From Lachnospiraceae bacterium (GTDB taxonomy: Bacteria; Bacillota; Clostridia; Lachnospirales; Lachnospiraceae), in the NCBI GenBank assembly GCA_021199475.1, contig JAJQHZ010000084.1:1-64000 (forward strand): 64,000 nt of DNA, in the 5' to 3' direction. The position numbers were made by a program, and so were the translations under genes. Below, piece by piece: positions 54,052 through 63,953 of this stretch. The notes under the pieces were generated by a model, which made no database searches, was not told the DNA's origin, and worked only from the letters and a program-made list of their open reading frames with translations. Every line of letters starts with the position of its first letter. Position 1 is the first letter of the stretch.

Positions 54052-54456
54052 TTACCTTGCGTTGATTCCGCTGACAAACGCCAGATAGCAGGCAAAATCT
54101 CCCAGCGCTTTTCGCCCGTATCCTTCCGTGTCATAGCCAAGCTCGTCGCGCCAGGCGGCGGGCTTGCCCAGCTGCTTCAGAAGTCTCGCAAACATGTTGA
54201 GATTTGTAATAAAGGAATCGTGCGCAGACGTCCGGCTTCCGTCCGTTTCCATTTTCTTCTCGCGGTCCAGTGTGCACCAGGAGGCGCGGATATTCGCGTA
54301 TTTTGCCGCTGCCCGGATCAAATCATCATAATACTCGAGGGCCTCCTCATCCGTCCCCACCTCACTGACCATCTCCCGATGAATCTGAGCCATACGCTCA
54401 AACGTCAGGTGCTGCGGCTCTTTCAGATAATCTTCGTAGATGTATGCTTTTGTCAT
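54052..54456 (-). CDS. hypothetical protein
   Basis: MTKAYIYEDYLKEPQHLTFERMAQIHREMVSEVGTDEEALEYYDDLIRAAAKYANIRASWCTLDREKKMETD; RBS-like GGAAAGGA upstream. Confidence 0.7.
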   Translation of the reverse strand: MTKAYIYEDYLKEPQHLTFERMAQIHREMVSEVGTDEEALEYYDDLIRAAAKYANIRASWCTLDREKKMETDGSRTSAHDSFITNLNMFARLLKQLGKPAAWRDELGYDTEGYGRKALGDFACYLAFVSGINAR

Positions 54457-54591
54457 AGCTTTTCCTTTCCGCCGCACTCTTTGCGGCCTTCCTTTCTTAT
54501 TTTCTGTCGCGCTCTTTACGGCTTTCTTTCATTATAAAAGAATCAAGCCAAAATGAAAACCCCCGAATCGGCTTTTGCTCTGTCAACAATG

Positions 54592-54879
54592 CTATGCACA
54601 GAGATCCATATCTGAGTAAATATCAAGGTCCGAGTCAGGGCCGGGCTCCTCGTTTGTGACGAGGAGCTCTTCCATATGTACCCGGAGCACTCTGCTCAGG
54701 ATCAGCAGGTTGTCCGTGCCAGGCAGATTCTTTCCGGCCATCCACTTGTAGACCGCCTGTGGATTCTCAAATCCCATAATCTGCTGAATGTCCTGGACGC
54801 TGTATCCGCTCTGACGGATAAGCGAACGAATGCGGTTCCCGGTTTCCGGCTGCAGGATTGATACACACATCATGTCCAT
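54592..54879 (-). CDS. XRE-type helix-turn-helix regulator with acidic C-terminus
   Basis: NRIRSLIRQSGYSVQDIQQIMGFENPQAVYKWMAGKNLPGTDNLLILSRVLRVHMEELLV. Confidence 0.88.
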   Translation of the reverse strand: MDMMCVSILQPETGNRIRSLIRQSGYSVQDIQQIMGFENPQAVYKWMAGKNLPGTDNLLILSRVLRVHMEELLVTNEEPGPDSDLDIYSDMDLCA

Positions 54880-54986
54880 ATTCTGCTCTCCTTTTCTCTC
54901 TTGGTTGTAGAATCAACTAATTGTCAAGGTACACCTGCCGAACCATTCACAGCCATCCGGCCCTGTGAACTGTTCTTTGAGCTTTT

Positions 54987-55122
54987 GCAGTGTTCGGACG
55001 CCTCCGACTCTGCGGACCAGCCTCCGAACTTCTGCAGTATTCGGGCATATCCGGCTCTGCGGACCGTCCTTCTACCTTTAGCAGCATTCGGGCGCCTGTC
55101 TTTACAGGCAGGCACCCGGCCC
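54987..55122. repeat. degenerate 47-bp tandem repeat (~3 units)
   Basis: GCAGTGTTCGGACGCCTCCGACTCTGCGGACC.. at 54987, 55034, 55081. Confidence 0.7.
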
Positions 55123-55134
55123 CGGCTGTGGCTG

Positions 55135-55485
55135 CTACCGGAGCAGCATACCGGGGTGGTTTGGAAAGAGCTCCACCTTTTGCAGCTCCACGCCTTCGGC
55201 GCTGACTACTCCGGTCACCCGTGCCCATTCGCCCGGAAGCTCCATAAGAACTGCCGGGATCAGGTAGCAAAAGGGGATTTTTCCCTTTCCCCTTTTGTCA
55301 AGGCGGATGCGCCGACTCTCGCAGGTGCACTCCCGGCGCAGCTTCCCGCAGCGGGCGAAAAAGCGCCGGGCCGCGTAGAAGACCGTGTTTTTGTCGTAGT
55401 TGCAGGGAACATAAGAAACAAAGATAACATCAGATGCAGCAGATACTTCACATGAGATAGAGCCATTCGTCATTTTCATAAACAT
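55135..55485 (-). CDS. small Cys-containing hypothetical protein, possibly single-strand-binding-like OB fold (tentative)
   Basis: MTNGSISCEVSAASDVIFVSYVPCNYDKNTVFYAARRFFARCGKLRRECTCESRRIRLDKRGKGKIPFCYLIPAVLMELPGEWARVTGVVSAEGVELQKVELFPNHPG; spaced upstream GTAAA..GGAG. Confidence 0.5.
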   Translation of the reverse strand: MFMKMTNGSISCEVSAASDVIFVSYVPCNYDKNTVFYAARRFFARCGKLRRECTCESRRIRLDKRGKGKIPFCYLIPAVLMELPGEWARVTGVVSAEGVELQKVELFPNHPGMLLR

Positions 55486-55848: not shown

Positions 55849-56607
55849 TCAACAGAGCCGGAAAATCTGCCGATATATGACATGCATTTTTTCCGTAACA
55901 TTCATCTCTGTATGGTAATGTCCAAAAAACCAATGGCCAAAGGACGCTTTCTCATAAACCTCCTGCAAAAAATCCATCAAACGATCGGTCTTCGTCCACT
56001 TCGGGTCAAGCATTCGATGCACCTCAATCGGCGCACAATGCGAGAGGATATAATCAGCTCTCCAGCCGAGGCGATCCAGTGTATCACGGCCATGAGCGAT
56101 TTCATCCTCCGATGGCAGCTCCTCTTTCCACCAGGACTCATGTTCAACACGAAACAGCCAGAACTTCCCGCCCCACGCGCGGTCCCGCTGCCAAAGCTTG
56201 ATTCGCGGGTCTCCGACCTGGAGAATCCCGTCCGAAATGTCATGACTGGATGCGCCGCCGAACGCGTAGAAGGTGTGCCCTTCCAGCGTATAAGCCTCCC
56301 CGCGCAGCAAGTGGTACACCGATGGTCGAATTCTCTGCGCGAACCCTCCGTGAAAAGGAACAAGCGGGAACTCGTCACTGTATAAACGGTCGAAATTCTC
56401 ATGGTTTCCGTCCAGAAACAGCGTCGTAAACGGACGCTCATCCAGCCAGCCCAGCTGGTACCGCTCTCCCTTCGTATCCTTCCAGATGCCAAAATCGCCA
56501 AGAACAATCACGAAATCATCCTTCGTAAGCTCACGTCCTTCCGGAAACGCTTGAAAGCTTAATCGAGTCATCCATTCCGTATGCGTATCTCCTGTAAGAT
56601 AGATCAT
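55849..56607 (-). CDS. metallophosphoesterase
   Basis: MIYLTGDTHTEW...FVIVLGDFGIW...LFLDGNHENFDR...ILSHCAP...GHWFFGHYH. Confidence 0.93.
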   Translation of the reverse strand: MIYLTGDTHTEWMTRLSFQAFPEGRELTKDDFVIVLGDFGIWKDTKGERYQLGWLDERPFTTLFLDGNHENFDRLYSDEFPLVPFHGGFAQRIRPSVYHLLRGEAYTLEGHTFYAFGGASSHDISDGILQVGDPRIKLWQRDRAWGGKFWLFRVEHESWWKEELPSEDEIAHGRDTLDRLGWRADYILSHCAPIEVHRMLDPKWTKTDRLMDFLQEVYEKASFGHWFFGHYHTEMNVTEKMHVIYRQIFRLC

Positions 56608-56681
56608 TTTCCCAGCCTCCTTGTGAGGATTTTCTATATGCCTCTGCCTTGTCTGATCTGCAATATTACCACTTCCGAATT

Positions 56682-57653
56682 TCATGCCATCTCATATTCC
56701 CACGGAAGCCCGGAAACGTTGTATTCCGGCCCATCGGACGCTTCCCTTCGGATGTCATAAACCGCGGCGGACGGGTCTTCAAACTGGATGGCATCCATCC
56801 GTTCCAGAAGGCAGCTCCTGATGAATCTCGCCCCGAGGCCGGAATCCAGTGCCGCCTGCGCCATCTGCTCCAGGCTGGGCGTATCGATCCAGATGGAGCT
56901 GTTGTATTCCTGCGAGAGATGGAAAACAGTCTTTTTGGCAATCTGCAGCATCGTTTCAAATGAAAGCTCTTCCATACGGATCAGCCGCTGGATTCTCCCG
57001 GCCAGCTCCCGTTTCAGCCCGTATTGTATGAGATCATCCACGGAAATCTCCTCCTGTCCGGAGGCCGCGGGCAATACACCGGGGGCCGGACAAAAGCCCA
57101 CTGGCCTGTGCCCGTCCGCAGATACTTTCAAATCTGCAAAGGCTCCCATAAAGACAATTGAAACATTGAAAAAATCCGTCTGAATAAAGCTGCTGCCTTC
57201 TCCAAATTCAACCAGATCGCCGTCCGCCATCTTCAGGAAATTGTCCTGCAGCAAATCCGCATAATTCGTGCCGCGGCTCCCATACGCCGGGCGAATGCAT
57301 TTGTCAAATTCATCAAACACCAGCAGGGTCGGCATTTTCCCAATTTCGGGATTGTTTCGCAATATGCTGGAAAGATGTGTGCTGTTTGCGCCATTCCAGC
57401 CTTCCGCGCTCAGAGCAGACGCATCCACGACCACAACCCGCCCCGGATAATGTCTTCTCAGGCATCGAAACAGTTCTGTCTTACCGGTCCCCGTACTTCC
57501 CATCAGCAGATTCGTGCTTCTCCGGCCTTCCAGGCAATTATAAAAGAGAACCGAGATGGCCCGTTTTGCCTTCTCCTGCCCCATAATCTCTTTGTCCAGG
57601 CAGCGGTAAACCGCCTGCGGAGACCAGTCCTGCAACGGTGAGCTGAAATTCAT
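56682..57653 (-). CDS. ClpX-like AAA+ ATPase lacking the zinc-binding domain
   Basis: IMGQEKAKRAISVLFYNCLEG; LMGSTGTGKTELFRCLRR; LLVFDEFDKCIRPAYGSRGTNYADLLQDNFLKMADG; VFMGAFADLKVSADGHRPVGFCP (VGF at the IGF-loop position); ELAGRIQRLIRM. Confidence 0.85.
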   Translation of the reverse strand: MNFSSPLQDWSPQAVYRCLDKEIMGQEKAKRAISVLFYNCLEGRRSTNLLMGSTGTGKTELFRCLRRHYPGRVVVVDASALSAEGWNGANSTHLSSILRNNPEIGKMPTLLVFDEFDKCIRPAYGSRGTNYADLLQDNFLKMADGDLVEFGEGSSFIQTDFFNVSIVFMGAFADLKVSADGHRPVGFCPAPGVLPAASGQEEISVDDLIQYGLKRELAGRIQRLIRMEELSFETMLQIAKKTVFHLSQEYNSSIWIDTPSLEQMAQAALDSGLGARFIRSCLLERMDAIQFEDPSAAVYDIRREASDGPEYNVSGLPWEYEMA

Positions 57654-57778
57654 ATGGCATTCTCCCTTTTCCCCAAAAACCAGCCAACAAACTACTAGTA
57701 GACCGTATCGTAAGTACTTGTGCATAATGCGCAGAATGTTTTGTCGAGAGTGCGATACAAAAACCGCAGGCGTAGCGA

Positions 57779-57853
57779 GGCGCTGAACGTCCAGTGGACG
57801 TTCGCTTAGCGCCGACCGAAGCGGAGACGTTTAGCGCGGACCGAAACGGAGTG
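57779..57853. repeat. nested hairpin plus 25-bp tandem duplication upstream of the ClpX-like gene
   Basis: GGCGCT-GAACGTCCA-G-TGGACGTTC-GCTT-AGCGCC; then TTAGCGCCGACCGAAGCGGAGACG / TTAGCGCGGACCGAAACGGAGTG. Confidence 0.8.
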
Positions 57854-57897
57854 TAGAAGCGCAGATCATTATGCCCCCGGCCGTCTGACTCATTGCT

Positions 57898-58926
57898 TCA
57901 AAGAAATAAATAAGGCGCAATCGCTATATACCAGGTCAATCGGTAGTTTTTAAGAAGCGCTTCCGGAGCGTCACAACCACAGTTTCCGCTATATTCTGCA
58001 TCAGGGCTTTTGCCAGCCTCATCGCCACCTGTATCGTCATTACTTGCAGCATCAACACAAGCGTCATCCGTGCTATCGCTGTCTTCCGCATCCGCGCAAT
58101 CATCATCCATATCATTACTGTCTTCCGCATCAGCACAATCATCATCCATGCCATCGCTGTCTTCCGCATCAGTGCTATCATCATACACGCTATCGTTGTC
58201 TTCTTCTATATCACCGCAGTCATCATCCGTGCCGTCATCCTCATACTCCGATAAATCATATAGATCGTCTGCATCATCGCTGTCCGGATGCGTGGCCGCA
58301 ATCCACCCGCAGTAGCCCATGTCCGCCACAGTATCCCTCATGTTTGTTTTTTCCGCCAGCGTTTTTGCTACACAGGGCAGTACGACTTCTATGTAAAATT
58401 TATCCGGCTGTCCGTTTCCGGTCAGTGCCGAGACTCCCTGATAAAGCTGTCTGACCGGCAGATGCAGGATTGGAAACTGCTCCGTCCGCCCCGAAGGCAT
58501 GCTTCTGAGCCGTTCCTTAAACGGCTTCAGGGAAACGCATTCTTCTTTTACCGTATCATGCATGCTTTCCCGATACTGTTCATCATTGAGTCCGCGGAGC
58601 ACCACACACATATCAAGACAATTGATCGACACGGAATACACCAGTTGATTCCCTGTCTCCCAAAGCGCATCTTCACTGGAGCGCAGGCAGGCGTCCATCA
58701 GCTTCACTGCATCCAGATACGTACGGATTTCGCCAAGACCGAGAGCTCCGGCAGCTTCCTGTGCCTTTTCCATAAACTCAGGGTATGCCGTTGGATCAAG
58801 AAAAAAATCACTTAAGGGCAGGGCCGCGAATTGCTGAACTGCGTTTGCCGACGCGGCCTCATCTGCGGCAAGCCCCTGTTCCGTCCGTCGAATCCGCTCC
58901 GAAAGCGGGATTTGTTTTCCCTTCAT
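57898..58926 (-). CDS. unknown protein with acidic Asp-rich repeat tail (paralog A)
   Basis: MKGKQIPLSERIRRTEQGLAADEAASANAVQQFAALPLSDFFLDPTAYPEFMEKAQE...; tail (DDCADAEDSxxMD)n; paralogous to 61280..62050. Confidence 0.85.
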   Translation of the reverse strand: MKGKQIPLSERIRRTEQGLAADEAASANAVQQFAALPLSDFFLDPTAYPEFMEKAQEAAGALGLGEIRTYLDAVKLMDACLRSSEDALWETGNQLVYSVSINCLDMCVVLRGLNDEQYRESMHDTVKEECVSLKPFKERLRSMPSGRTEQFPILHLPVRQLYQGVSALTGNGQPDKFYIEVVLPCVAKTLAEKTNMRDTVADMGYCGWIAATHPDSDDADDLYDLSEYEDDGTDDDCGDIEEDNDSVYDDSTDAEDSDGMDDDCADAEDSNDMDDDCADAEDSDSTDDACVDAASNDDTGGDEAGKSPDAEYSGNCGCDAPEALLKNYRLTWYIAIAPYLFL

Positions 58927-59044
58927 AGGATCGTTCCTTTCCTGATGTATCTTTCCTGATGTATCTATCGTTCCTAACCCGGATAAACCGAAACCAAAAT
59001 TTTGTCATTTTGCGTAAGAAATCGTTCTTAAGCGCCTAATGTAT

Positions 59045-59123
59045 CGTATCAATTAATCGTTTCGATTATTCGTTTCTATTAATCGTATCAATTAACCGTT
59101 TCAATATAATCGTTTCGATTAAC
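59045..59123. repeat. six tandem 13-14-bp iteron-like repeats
   Basis: CGTATCAATTAAT CGTTTCGATTATT CGTTTCTATTAAT CGTATCAATTAAC CGTTTCAATATAAT CGTTTCGATTAAC. Confidence 0.92.
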
Positions 59124-59706
59124 CTTCAAACTGCCGGATTACCCGGTCAGCCAGACCGTATTCCACCGCCTCCTCGGCGTAAAAATAGGTATCGTTGCAG
59201 GTTTTTTCGTAGATCTCTTCCAGCGTCCGGTGCGTGTGCTCCGCCAGAATCTGACACAGGATCTCCCGGGTCCGCATCAGGTCGTCGCTGATGCCACGAA
59301 TGTTCAGCGCACTGCCGCCTAAGCCGCCGCTGATCAGCGGATCGTGAATCATGACTCTGGCGTGAGGCAGAATCTCGCGCCGGTCTCCCGCGGCAAAAAG
59401 GACGGCGCCCATGCTGGCGGCAGTGCCGACACAGACTGTCCGGATGGGGGAGCGGATGGCCTTCATGACATCATACAGCGCCAGGCCGCTTGCGACCTCA
59501 CCGCCCGGGCTGTTGATGTACATCGTAATCTCCTGCTCCGGATCCTGCCGAAACAGATAAAGCAGCTGGGAGATGAGCGCATCCGCACTCTCCGAATTGA
59601 TCTCTCCCACACACTCAATCTCACGGCGCGACAGCATCTCATCCCGGATATCGAATGAGCTGAAGCCGCTGCTGGTTTCCTTTATAATTCGAGGCTGTAT
59701 GTACAT
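59119..59706 (-). CDS. ClpP-type proteolytic subunit
   Basis: MYINSPGGEVASGLALYDVMKAIRSPIRTVCVGTAASMGAVLFAAGDRREILPHARVMIHDPLISGG...CNDTYFYAEEAVEYGLADRVI: Ser (ASMG), His (MIHDP), Asp (ND). Confidence 0.95.
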   Translation of the reverse strand: MYIQPRIIKETSSGFSSFDIRDEMLSRREIECVGEINSESADALISQLLYLFRQDPEQEITMYINSPGGEVASGLALYDVMKAIRSPIRTVCVGTAASMGAVLFAAGDRREILPHARVMIHDPLISGGLGGSALNIRGISDDLMRTREILCQILAEHTHRTLEEIYEKTCNDTYFYAEEAVEYGLADRVIRQFEG

Positions 59707-59747
59707 ATCGGCTCTATCTCCTTTTTCTTTTTTCTTAACTCACGCGC

Positions 59748-59895
59748 ACAGCCCTTCCGGGCGCTGTGGGGATTTCATCGACCTTGCCACATAACGCGCA
59801 CATCTCTTTCGGACGCTGCGGGGATTTCATCGACCTTGTCACATAACTCATGCGCACAACCCTTCCGATCGCTGCGGGGATTTCGTCGGCTTCTC
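59748..59895. repeat. three tandem 52-56-bp repeats derived from the 3' end of the TraG-like gene
   Basis: GCGCACAGCCCTTCCGGGCGCTGTGGGGATTTCATCGACCTTGCCACATAAC x3, third copy inside the TraG-like C-terminus. Confidence 0.88.
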
Positions 59896-61191
59896 TCCTT
59901 CCGGAGTGCCGGGCGCTCTGCGCAGTCTTTTCGCCTCCGCAAGCTCCCCGTACCTTCTGTGTTCCCGAATGTCATACTTTTCGACCTGTCTGGCTCCGCT
60001 GCCCCTGGTAAAGAGCCATGCCTGATCCAACGGCATGTTCAGGATCGTGTTCATGGTTTTATTGACCTTGACGGCCATATACTCAGCCGTCCTGATGTCC
60101 TGTCCGCCAAGATACAGGCAGTGATCACAGTTGTTGATAATGGTTTGAGATTTTTCCGGCCCATAGATCGCTTCCAGCTGAGAAATACTCTGCAAAATAA
60201 TGCTCACATAGATTTCTCTGGAACGGATCACGGATATCAAGTTATCAAAGTCCTTGATCACACAGTTAGCAGCAAAATCATCCAGGATAAACCGTACTGG
60301 AACCGGAAGAGCGCTGTCTTCACACTCATTATCCGCATAGTCGCACAGTGCCTGAAATGCCTGCGTGTAAAACAGGCTGATCAACCGGTCCTGCGAGCGG
60401 TCCGTATCACTGACCGAAAGGAATACCGCCGTCTTTTCCTGTCCAATGGTTTCAAAAACCAGCTTGTCCGGGTGGTTGTACACCTGAATCAGTGCCCGCG
60501 TCGCCAGCCCGTTCAGGTTTTCCGACAAAATTCCCAATACCGAGGCGTGCATCTTTTCAGCCGTCTTGTTTCCTTCGATCTGCCGGTACATTCTCGAAGC
60601 GTACCCGTCAGGATCCAGCGTCAGAAGCTCCCGCATCAGATCGGAGAATACATTGGTCTGCATCATCCCGCTCAGCCGGATGACATACTCCAGCGTATGC
60701 TCTTCGGGCGGCAGACACTCCATAACATAGGCCACCAGGCACTCCAGATATTGCCTTGCCGCATTTTGCCAGTAAGGATCCTTCTGGTAAGACGCTTCCG
60801 GCGTGATCGCCGTACACAGTTTCATGATACTCTCTTCCGAGTAGCACTGTCTCTCGTCGTCATAAGAAATGTAGTCCAGCGGGTTGTAGCCGCAGGTGGA
60901 TTTCATATTCTTAAAATCAATGAGCAGCGTCCGGTACCCGTGCTTTTTCAAAAGCGGGGACATTTCCCGGTAGAGATTTCCTTTCGTGTCCGTAATCACA
61001 AAGGACTCGTTCGCCTGCATGATAGTAGGCTTCACATAGCCCCGCGTCTTTCCAGCGCCGCTCGGCCCAATGATCAGGTCGTTGTTATTGAGCCCCGTGA
61101 TCCAGGTATCATTGCTCACCGTCACGCCCTTCGCGAGGATACGGCAGTTGCCGCGTTCGTCCGTCATCTGACTGATTCGTTCGTCTCTCAT
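59848..61191 (-). CDS. TraG/VirD4-family (type IV coupling protein-like) ATPase without N-terminal TM domain
   Basis: NNDLIIGPSGAGKTRGYVKPTIMQANESFVITDTKGNLYREMSPLLKKHGYRTLLIDFKNMKSTCGYNPLDYI...PVRFILDDFAANCVIKDFDNLISVIRSREIYVSIILQSISQLEAIYG. Confidence 0.92.
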   Translation of the reverse strand: MRDERISQMTDERGNCRILAKGVTVSNDTWITGLNNNDLIIGPSGAGKTRGYVKPTIMQANESFVITDTKGNLYREMSPLLKKHGYRTLLIDFKNMKSTCGYNPLDYISYDDERQCYSEESIMKLCTAITPEASYQKDPYWQNAARQYLECLVAYVMECLPPEEHTLEYVIRLSGMMQTNVFSDLMRELLTLDPDGYASRMYRQIEGNKTAEKMHASVLGILSENLNGLATRALIQVYNHPDKLVFETIGQEKTAVFLSVSDTDRSQDRLISLFYTQAFQALCDYADNECEDSALPVPVRFILDDFAANCVIKDFDNLISVIRSREIYVSIILQSISQLEAIYGPEKSQTIINNCDHCLYLGGQDIRTAEYMAVKVNKTMNTILNMPLDQAWLFTRGSGARQVEKYDIREHRRYGELAEAKRLRRAPGTPEGEKPTKSPQRSEGLCA

Positions 61192-61279
61192 AGATCCCCC
61201 TTTGCGTCTGTTCAGTACCTTCACAGTGATCCCATTGCATTCCCGTGCGCATCTGTCGGCCATAAAAACGGCATGGTGA

Positions 61280-62050
61280 TCAGCTTCGTTCATACTCTCT
61301 TCCGCCCACGCTCAGGGCATAGGGCATGATCGCCATGTACCGGATCAGCCGGGTAATAACGCAATCTTTGAAGTCATCCGTTTCGCAGTCTTCAATCTCA
61401 TCAATTTCATAATCAGCATCGGTGTCATTGTGTCCATCACCGTCATCGGTATCATCCGTTTCGGCATCTTCCCGCGAGCCGTAAAAATCATACCAGTCAG
61501 GCCAGTTATCAAGCAGCGCTGTTCCATAAAACGCCATGTCCAACACGGTATCTTTCAACTTCTCTTCCATGTGCAGCGCATGCTTCACACACGGCCGCAC
61601 CATCCTGCGGTAAAATTCATCCGGATAACAACCGCCCCGGATTTCGGATGCTGCCTGATACAGCTGCCGCGTTGAGAGAGTCAGCACCGGAAACTTCTCA
61701 TTCCATCCCGTCTTCCGGTTCCTCATCAGGATATACAGGTCCATGTAATTATCCGCAATCATTTTCTGAAGGCGAATACCCAGCTTCTGCATCTTTTCAT
61801 CCCGGGAGCGCCGGTCCGTATAAATCAGCAGCACCGCATCCTGATATGTGCGGATCTTATCAGCCTCATCCGGATGCAGCTCTTTGACCGCTTCCATAAA
61901 GCCGGTGTATGCTCCCGGTCCAAGGAAAAATTCTTCCAGAGGCAAAGCAGCAGATTTTTTCATTGCTGCTGCAAAATCCTTTTTGTCCGCCGCCGACCCG
62001 TTCTCAAGTCTCCGGATCCGCTCGGACAGTGATATCGGTTCAATTGTCAA
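61280..62050 (-). CDS. unknown protein with acidic tail (paralog B), probable TTG start
   Basis: (M)TIEPISLSERIRRLENGSAADKKDFAAAMKKSAALPLEEFFLGPGAYTGFMEAVKEL... aligns with paralog A from the first residues; GGAAAGGAGA upstream of TTG 62050. Confidence 0.8.
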   Translation of the reverse strand: MTIEPISLSERIRRLENGSAADKKDFAAAMKKSAALPLEEFFLGPGAYTGFMEAVKELHPDEADKIRTYQDAVLLIYTDRRSRDEKMQKLGIRLQKMIADNYMDLYILMRNRKTGWNEKFPVLTLSTRQLYQAASEIRGGCYPDEFYRRMVRPCVKHALHMEEKLKDTVLDMAFYGTALLDNWPDWYDFYGSREDAETDDTDDGDGHNDTDADYEIDEIEDCETDDFKDCVITRLIRYMAIMPYALSVGGREYERS

Positions 62051-62112
62051 GGTTCGGTTCGTCTCCTTTCCTGCGGTCAGGTTACTATTCGCAGCTATGC
62101 TGTGAATGTAAC

Positions 62113-62206
62113 GATTTCGCCCCATTTTAATTGAGTCTGCGACGCATGGGGCGAAATCTCGCATGCGAAATGTGCTTTGGCGCAGCCTGACAGCAGGTGT
62201 CAGGCT
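62113..62206. repeat. two strong hairpins at the border of the AT-rich hipBA segment
   Basis: GATTTCGCCCCAT (62113-62125)/ATGGGGCGAAATC (62146-62158); AGCCTGACA (62184-62192)/TGTCAGGCT (62198-62206). Confidence 0.85.
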
Positions 62207-62373: not shown

Positions 62374-63633
62374 TTACTTAAATTCCATATCAAATGCTGG
62401 TGCCATTCTCTCGATCTCTCCTCTTGTAAGGCCATATTTTTTTGCCAATATTCTCCAATTATTTTCTACAATACTTCTGATCCCATCCAGGCATATCCTC
62501 GCTTGTTTTTCAGCTATCCCAAACATAGATGCAACATCCAATGCCAACTCAAAATCGATTAAATTATCATTCTCATCCACATTTAAAGATAACACATCTC
62601 CCTCTGAATTTGGATTCACATCATATAAAGGTGACAAATGCCATCCTTCATTTGTTAAAAGAAAACCATGATTTCTCAAATGATCATCTGTATTGGAAAC
62701 TGCCATATTAAACACAATACGCTTCCATAATTCCGATAAATCTTTTTTAGGAGCAGCACCATATTTTCTTATCAAAGAAACAAGATCAAGATAACCTGAT
62801 CCATCAGCAGCACCCGCGCCATCATTCTTACCCAGCAATGTCATTGCGGATGCAAAATGGATTCTTCTTTTCCCCTCCCGATCAAATCGTTTTATCAAAA
62901 ATGTGCTTCCTGTCTTTGAAAAATTTTCAACTTTTGCTTCCGGGACATCAAGGCCGCACATCATCGCTAAATCATGCACAACCATTTCCCATGCACCCAC
63001 ATTCGTATCATCATGTTTGGATGGGAATTTTGCAATCCACAATGAACCATCCGGAGCAGATACCGATGCTTTAGGCCTCGCCCCTCCCAGTGACGATCCC
63101 GGTGCTAATAATTGCTTCAGCCATTTTTCTTCCATCCCATCTTCATTTTTTTCAAATGCCAATGATGCAGATTCCAATTTACGAAGTGTTGTCCATGGAG
63201 GAGTCGCTAACTCTTTATCATTAGACAAAAATGGGCCACCTTCGTTTACAGAAAACCGTAATCCACCCATCCTCGTCTCATCGAAAACTCCAAGGAGATA
63301 GTCAATATCTGTAAGTCGCTTTGGTTTTCTTTCTTCTTTCTTAGCAATGATTGCTTCGCGACGTTTCATCAATGTACGTCCCCACCTATCCGGACAAGAA
63401 TCTGCAAAAATTCCAAACATAGATTTGTTTAACGGGGCATACTGACGACCTTTATATAACATCAAATCCGGATCAAAAATAAGACTTGTGTCTACATTTT
63501 CAAGCCAGGAATCATCATATTCAAAGGAAATAACTTCCTTTCCTCTTCCACCGTCCACATTAATAGTTCCTATTTTTTCAGGAATAACAGTATCCCAATT
63601 CTTATATACATAAATAATTCTTGCATCTGCCAT
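62374..63633 (-). CDS. hipA: HipA-family kinase toxin
   Basis: YAPLNKSMFGIFADSCPDRWGRTLMKRRE...GSSLGGARPKASV..GSLWIAKFPSKHDD...FSKTGSTFLIKRFDREGKRRIHFASAMTLLG...NTDDHLRNHGFLL. Confidence 0.95.
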   Translation of the reverse strand: MADARIIYVYKNWDTVIPEKIGTINVDGGRGKEVISFEYDDSWLENVDTSLIFDPDLMLYKGRQYAPLNKSMFGIFADSCPDRWGRTLMKRREAIIAKKEERKPKRLTDIDYLLGVFDETRMGGLRFSVNEGGPFLSNDKELATPPWTTLRKLESASLAFEKNEDGMEEKWLKQLLAPGSSLGGARPKASVSAPDGSLWIAKFPSKHDDTNVGAWEMVVHDLAMMCGLDVPEAKVENFSKTGSTFLIKRFDREGKRRIHFASAMTLLGKNDGAGAADGSGYLDLVSLIRKYGAAPKKDLSELWKRIVFNMAVSNTDDHLRNHGFLLTNEGWHLSPLYDVNPNSEGDVLSLNVDENDNLIDFELALDVASMFGIAEKQARICLDGIRSIVENNWRILAKKYGLTRGEIERMAPAFDMEFK

Positions 63634-63635
63634 AT

Positions 63636-63953
63636 TTATTTAGTCCTTTTCGCTCTGCCACGAGTCTGAATATTTAAATCCTGCAATTTTCTTCCAAATT
63701 CATCATCTCTGGCAACTAATTCAAAATCTTTATCCATTCCGCCAAGTGCATGTAATACTGCTGCATAAGTCCCTATCGATACGGTTGGGGTACCCTTTTC
63801 CACCGACCATAATGTGGCACGACTAATTCCAGCTCTTTCAGCAACTAATTCTGTGGCAAGATTTCTTCTTAATCGAGCCATTTTAATTTGTTCACCCATT
63901 GTTTCTAATATTTTTTGTGTTTCCGGCATCACAACCACTGTTCTTTTACTCAT
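63636..63953 (-). CDS. hipB: HipB-type XRE antitoxin
   Basis: ILETMGEQIKMARLRRNLATELVAERAGISRATLWSVEKGTPTVSIGTYAAVLHALGGMDKDFELVARDDEFGRKLQDL; 2-nt spacing to hipA. Confidence 0.93.
   Translation of the reverse strand: MSKRTVVVMPETQKILETMGEQIKMARLRRNLATELVAERAGISRATLWSVEKGTPTVSIGTYAAVLHALGGMDKDFELVARDDEFGRKLQDLNIQTRGRAKRTK

Follow-up and report, generated by a model that had tools for sequence, protein, structure and literature searches.

To our knowledge, every ATP-driven ClpP protease characterised so far uses an AAA+ Clp unfoldase. Coupling proteins of the VirD4/TraG type, which include the CD1115 family, TrwB, Cag-beta and DotL, are built on an ATPase core into which a helical domain is inserted, and some relatives are known to have small regulators or chaperones. 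In HerA-effector complexes such as SIR2-HerA and DUF4297-HerA, a related ATPase of the HerA group is encoded together with an effector enzyme. Here, we report the analysis of a 64,000-nucleotide stretch of a Lachnospiraceae genome (hereafter, the window), where an old module of the Clostridia is present in one copy, with two genes that encode a dedicated ClpP and a soluble VirD4/TraG-type ATPase. A search of open-access PMC papers yielded no earlier description of this pair.

The module resembles ClpXP and the other AAA+ Clp proteases in that a ClpP with an intact Ser-His-Asp triad is encoded beside an ATPase of a ring-forming type, but its constant partner is of the VirD4/TraG type, and Arg192 and the pocket residues of the ClpP are changed. 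An IGF-type loop is present in the window (as VGF), whereas the zinc-binding domain of ClpX and a constantly linked AAA+ ATPase are missing. With the coupling proteins the module shares the ATPase core and its helical insertion, and its small companion proteins invite comparison with the regulators and chaperones of that family; however, the TraG proteins linked to ClpP have no anchor, carry DD rather than DE and always lie beside ClpP, and the one in the window has no secretion genes around it. The HerA-effector complexes differ in that their effector is a nuclease or NADase and not a ClpP, and the module's ATPase is closer to VirD4 than to HerA, with no defence-island context seen. As the module lacks defining features of ClpXP and of coupling proteins, we class it with neither, and cautiously regard it as a variant form of ATP-driven ClpP protease.

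Six co-directional genes occupy the minus strand at 55849-62164 of the window (contig C117, 79.6 kb) in the order paralog B, TraG, ClpP, paralog A, ClpX-like ATPase and metallophosphoesterase, as a previous sequence-only reading had it. Pfam, NCBIfam and PDB sequence searches bear out the assignment of ClpP, TraG and the ClpX-like ATPase. Several starts were shortened from the longest ORF on the basis of ribosome-binding sites, by our own reading. The two core components are the accessory ClpP (59119..59706, minus strand, 195 aa; PF00574, 1e-55) and the TraG-type ATPase (59848..61191, minus strand, 447 aa; PF02534 and NF045973), whose longest ORF starts at 61293 and whose ribosome-binding site places the start at 61191. 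Two tandem repeats were also observed here, one of 13 bp x6 after clpP (59043-59122) and one of 52 bp x2.8 (59736-59888) that covers the 3' end of traG and the gap.

The pairing of these two genes extends well beyond the window. A ClpP gene was found within about 1 kb in all 40 intact loci of the linked TraG clade, which comprise the window, other Bacillota genomes and two IMG/VR contigs; a TraG fragment (L132) was left out of the 40, being cut by a contig end with its neighbour beyond view. The majority of the module loci were recovered using TraG alone as the query. At the family level, a TraG-only query returned more short TraG genes, again with ClpP adjoining, and a ClpP-only query returned accessory ClpPs, with a TraG-type gene adjoining in the best ten regions fetched. 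Searches at the class and phylum levels added three loci from two other families, IMG/VR added two and the genus added five. The carriers are Clostridia related to gut bacteria. In contrast, no ClpP was found near conjugative-type TraG genes at any of 53 control loci (36, one plasmid copy, one further locus and 15 short or broken copies), some of which are near-identical and for which flanks of mostly 1.5 kb per side were viewed. The order is TraG-ClpP in seven loci (the window, L218, L113, L117, L125, L129 and L202) and ClpP-TraG elsewhere, with most intergenic gaps below 35 bp or negative; that the linkage survives a flipped gene order argues for function.

Phylogenetic analysis separated both partners from their relatives. 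The linked ClpPs fell on one side of a branch (support 100/99) from 18 housekeeping ClpPs, and the linked TraGs formed one group (100/100) against 34 conjugative TraGs; in a larger tree of 39 linked and 50 other TraG rows the linked group received 98 (SH-aLRT, quick method). Pairwise distances of ClpP and TraG were correlated across 31 loci (Mantel r=0.82, p=1e-4), and both proteins are intact over deep divergence. Co-occurrence across genomes with variable flanks was the mark of a system proposed in the sequence-only reading, and ClpP and TraG, which occur together across genera amid variable flanks and small companion genes, are hence supported as a conserved system; the ClpX-like ATPase, which that reading had included, does not share this pattern. 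The constant partner of the linked ClpP is the TraG-type ATPase and not the ClpX-like ATPase.

The ClpP of the window is 41% identical to the housekeeping ClpP of the same genome (contig C20) and, as previously noted, retains the catalytic residues Ser98, His121 and Asp172. Among 32 linked ClpPs, Ser and His are present in 32 each and Asp in 31. Arg192, the ClpX-docking residue, is found in none of the 32, against 15 of 18 housekeeping ClpPs (the remaining three carry other residues), and is Phe in the window. The partner of this residue, Glu51, persists in 10/32 linked and 18/18 housekeeping sequences. At position 28 of the linked ClpPs, Ile has given way to residues that are mostly charged, and at position 82 the aromatic residue is replaced mostly by small ones. 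In E. coli ClpP, the R192K substitution abolishes ClpX binding and protein degradation with ClpX, with retention of peptidase activity (PMC7112951). A two-residue insertion near the catalytic His was considered as a diagnostic mark and discarded, being present also in Neisseria ClpP.

The TraG-type protein of the window matches PF02534 at 2.5e-45, scores above the CD1115 VirD4-like cut-off and is matched to Cag5 by profile. The earlier observation that it has no TM domain holds: it lacks a hydrophobic N-terminal segment, which is present in none of 32 linked TraGs, against 31 of 34 conjugative ones. The Walker A Lys is invariant in the linked TraGs, and their Walker B reads DD (39/39) where that of the conjugative proteins reads DE (34/34). 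The predicted structure, at moderate confidence (pLDDT 65.8), has a RecA-type core interrupted by a helical insertion, for which Foldseek returned Cag-beta and TrwB as the nearest matches, followed by VirB4 and HerA. No conserved IGF-like tripeptide was found in the linked TraGs, and docking to ClpP would thus need another mode. Seven genes of one conjugative-type TraG lineage are also short ORFs without an anchor (L139/L166, L227-L230, L232, L233); they have no ClpP, carry DE in Walker B and are placed inside the conjugative group. Loss of the anchor alone was therefore rejected as a mark of ClpP linkage, and it is the clade, not anchor loss itself, that predicts ClpP. Plasmid and phage collections yielded only weaker TraG matches, of which the two examined were full-length types.

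Small companion genes accompany the pair. In the window these are companion A (57898..58926, minus strand, 342 aa) and companion B (61280..62050, minus strand, 256 aa), the latter with a TTG start chosen by its ribosome-binding site within an ORF that reaches 62164. The two had been described as acidic-tailed paralogs; they are true paralogs (phmmer 4e-36) and the tails are real, but most companions elsewhere have none, and the acidic tail was ruled out as a family hallmark. That of A is encoded by a 39-bp tandem repeat x4 (58049-58203). What is common to A, B and small proteins from genes that lie upstream of clpP at other loci (L072, L073, L074) is the N-terminal domain, with phmmer values of 3e-6 to 1e-5 for A against the L073/L074 companions and 6e-8 for B against that of L073. 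Companion A is present in the congener G950, an apparent two-repeat version of the domain was recognised by eye at the IMG/VR locus L111, and in a distant module group (L122, L124) YbjN/CesT-like proteins lie beside the pair, with weak E-values. The AlphaFold model of B is mainly helical and of low confidence (48.7). CagZ and IcmSW are small adaptors or regulators of their coupling ATPases, and by analogy the companions are possible adaptors or regulators of the module. As a separate observation, some companions and TraGs (L042, L070, L075, L164, L171) have at or near their end an acidic LPF tip, e.g. DELPFD, which recalls the C-terminal tip of SSB.

With regard to regulation, the XRE gene at 63636-63953 suggested by the sequence-only reading is instead the partner of a HipA-like gene, the two lying in an AT-rich stretch (62374-63953; 36-41% GC against about 51%); this is probably a separately acquired toxin-antitoxin pair and a separate neighbour of the module. 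The better candidate is the XRE-type repressor at 54592..54879 (minus strand), since similar regulators occur near seven modules (the window, L218, L078, L115, L077, L117, L130). It lies, on the same strand, between a DUF3232-like small protein gene (54052..54477; 60% identical in L218 and 40% in L070), which recurs near related modules, and a 116-aa ORF (55135..55485; 81% identical in L218). This segment (54052-55485) is conserved with the module in L218, the G950 locus, where the outer flanks differ. The metallophosphoesterase (55849..56607, minus strand, 252 aa; PF00149) is optional; no counterpart came to light in any other module screened for it. A second copy, 77% identical, was located at C117:65020-65781; the two copies flank the module and the HipA pair, and the second also overlaps, at its end, with an HD-domain-like gene.

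Taken together, the sequence and fold comparisons make it moderately probable that the linked ClpP has its motor or gate in the VirD4-type ATPase. For the proposal that a ring of the VirD4/TraG type, which does not belong to the AAA+ Clp unfoldases, has become a dedicated ClpP motor or gate, so that a secretion-type translocase now works as a degradation machine, we would put the chances at about even. Under such a mechanism, the TraG-type ATPase, expected to form a hexameric ring, would accept protein substrates in the way that VirD4/DotL-type coupling proteins accept them for secretion and would pass them into the ClpP chamber in place of a membrane channel, with the small companion proteins serving as adaptors or regulators in the manner of CagZ or IcmSW. 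In the genome of the window, the module has additionally gained the ClpX-like ATPase and the metallophosphoesterase, both optional. The points against the motor reading include, besides the absence of a conserved IGF-like tripeptide and the moderate confidence of the TraG model, that DNA is what VirD4-type proteins are chiefly known for, and that the proteins of neighbouring genes can act in turn without binding one another.

The main rival to the motor model sees in the TraG-type ring a sensor or translocase that binds DNA and, upon encountering foreign or processed DNA, activates ClpP as its effector. Such a role would fit the further fold matches of the TraG model, which include the HerA-SIR2 and HerA-DUF4297 defence complexes, and the patchy occurrence of the module among genomes at differing chromosomal places, as is usual for defence genes. 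On the other hand, beyond weak similarity of the ATPase the core genes matched no PADLOC family, and the flanks hold mostly ordinary metabolic genes and no defence islands. A reading of the neighbours as a defence island was set aside, as PADLOC and Pfam searches of 86 neighbours gave mostly scattered ordinary genes and a few helicases. We consider DNA sensing unlikely.

Less probable still is the explanation put forward in the sequence-only reading, in which the ClpX-like ATPase (56682..57653, minus strand, 323 aa) docks on the accessory ClpP through its VGF to form a private ClpX*P protease, leaving TraG as an extra pump. NCBIfam and PDB sequence searches gave ClpX as the best match of this protein, yet far below the ClpX equivalog cut-offs. 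The individual features described for it were borne out: it starts just before the AAA+ domain and thus has no zinc-binding domain, and VGF aligns exactly at the position of the IGF loop. Walker A and B are also kept, GF is invariant in 8/8 aligned sequences, and it is plausible that the protein is an active AAA+ ATPase. A ClpX-like ATPase carrying SIGF is found in a second module (L113), but with the window this amounts to 2/40 modules. In G950, where ClpP and TraG are 91% and 81% identical to those of the window, the order is TraG, ClpP, A, DUF3232-like, 116-aa ORF and XRE, and the ClpX-like gene, the metallophosphoesterase and paralog B are all missing. The absence of the ClpX-like gene beside so similar a ClpP indicates that it is optional, and it was ruled out as a fixed part of the module. 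Along with the loss of Arg192 and the altered pocket residues in the linked ClpPs, these findings speak against a dedicated ClpX*P machine.

Proteins related to the ClpX-like ATPase are mostly located elsewhere. They belong to a family of zinc-finger-less Clostridia ATPases with IGF or LGF loops (L006, L008, L171, and L039/L040 from Butyrivibrio), in whose loci neither ClpP nor TraG is found; in several of these loci a small partner gene of another kind (100-145 aa) comes after the ATPase gene, with one gene between in L006. The ATPase and its small partner look like a separate gene pair.

The absence of a relaxase (PF03432) and of VirB4, noted previously for the window, extends to the whole contig, the matches of the genome being on C15, C19, C87 and C119. 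That the genes belong to a conjugative element, as ordinary or as decayed components of it, the alternative raised in the sequence-only reading, is very improbable even with a TraG of a family used by conjugative elements, the existence of short anchor-less conjugative copies and an IMG/VR copy (L111) among genes of mobile-element-like look (by eye), as ClpP is absent from all 53 conjugative-type loci, the short copies sit in the conjugative group and ClpP and TraG both stay intact across deep divergence.

If the motor model is true, a compartmental protease has exchanged its motor, with a co-diverging VirD4-type partner and with loss of the ClpX-docking Arg, and ATPases of the coupling-protein type would be able to work on proteins where there is no secretion channel. 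The module is a small, defined two-gene system that is amenable to direct expression and testing.
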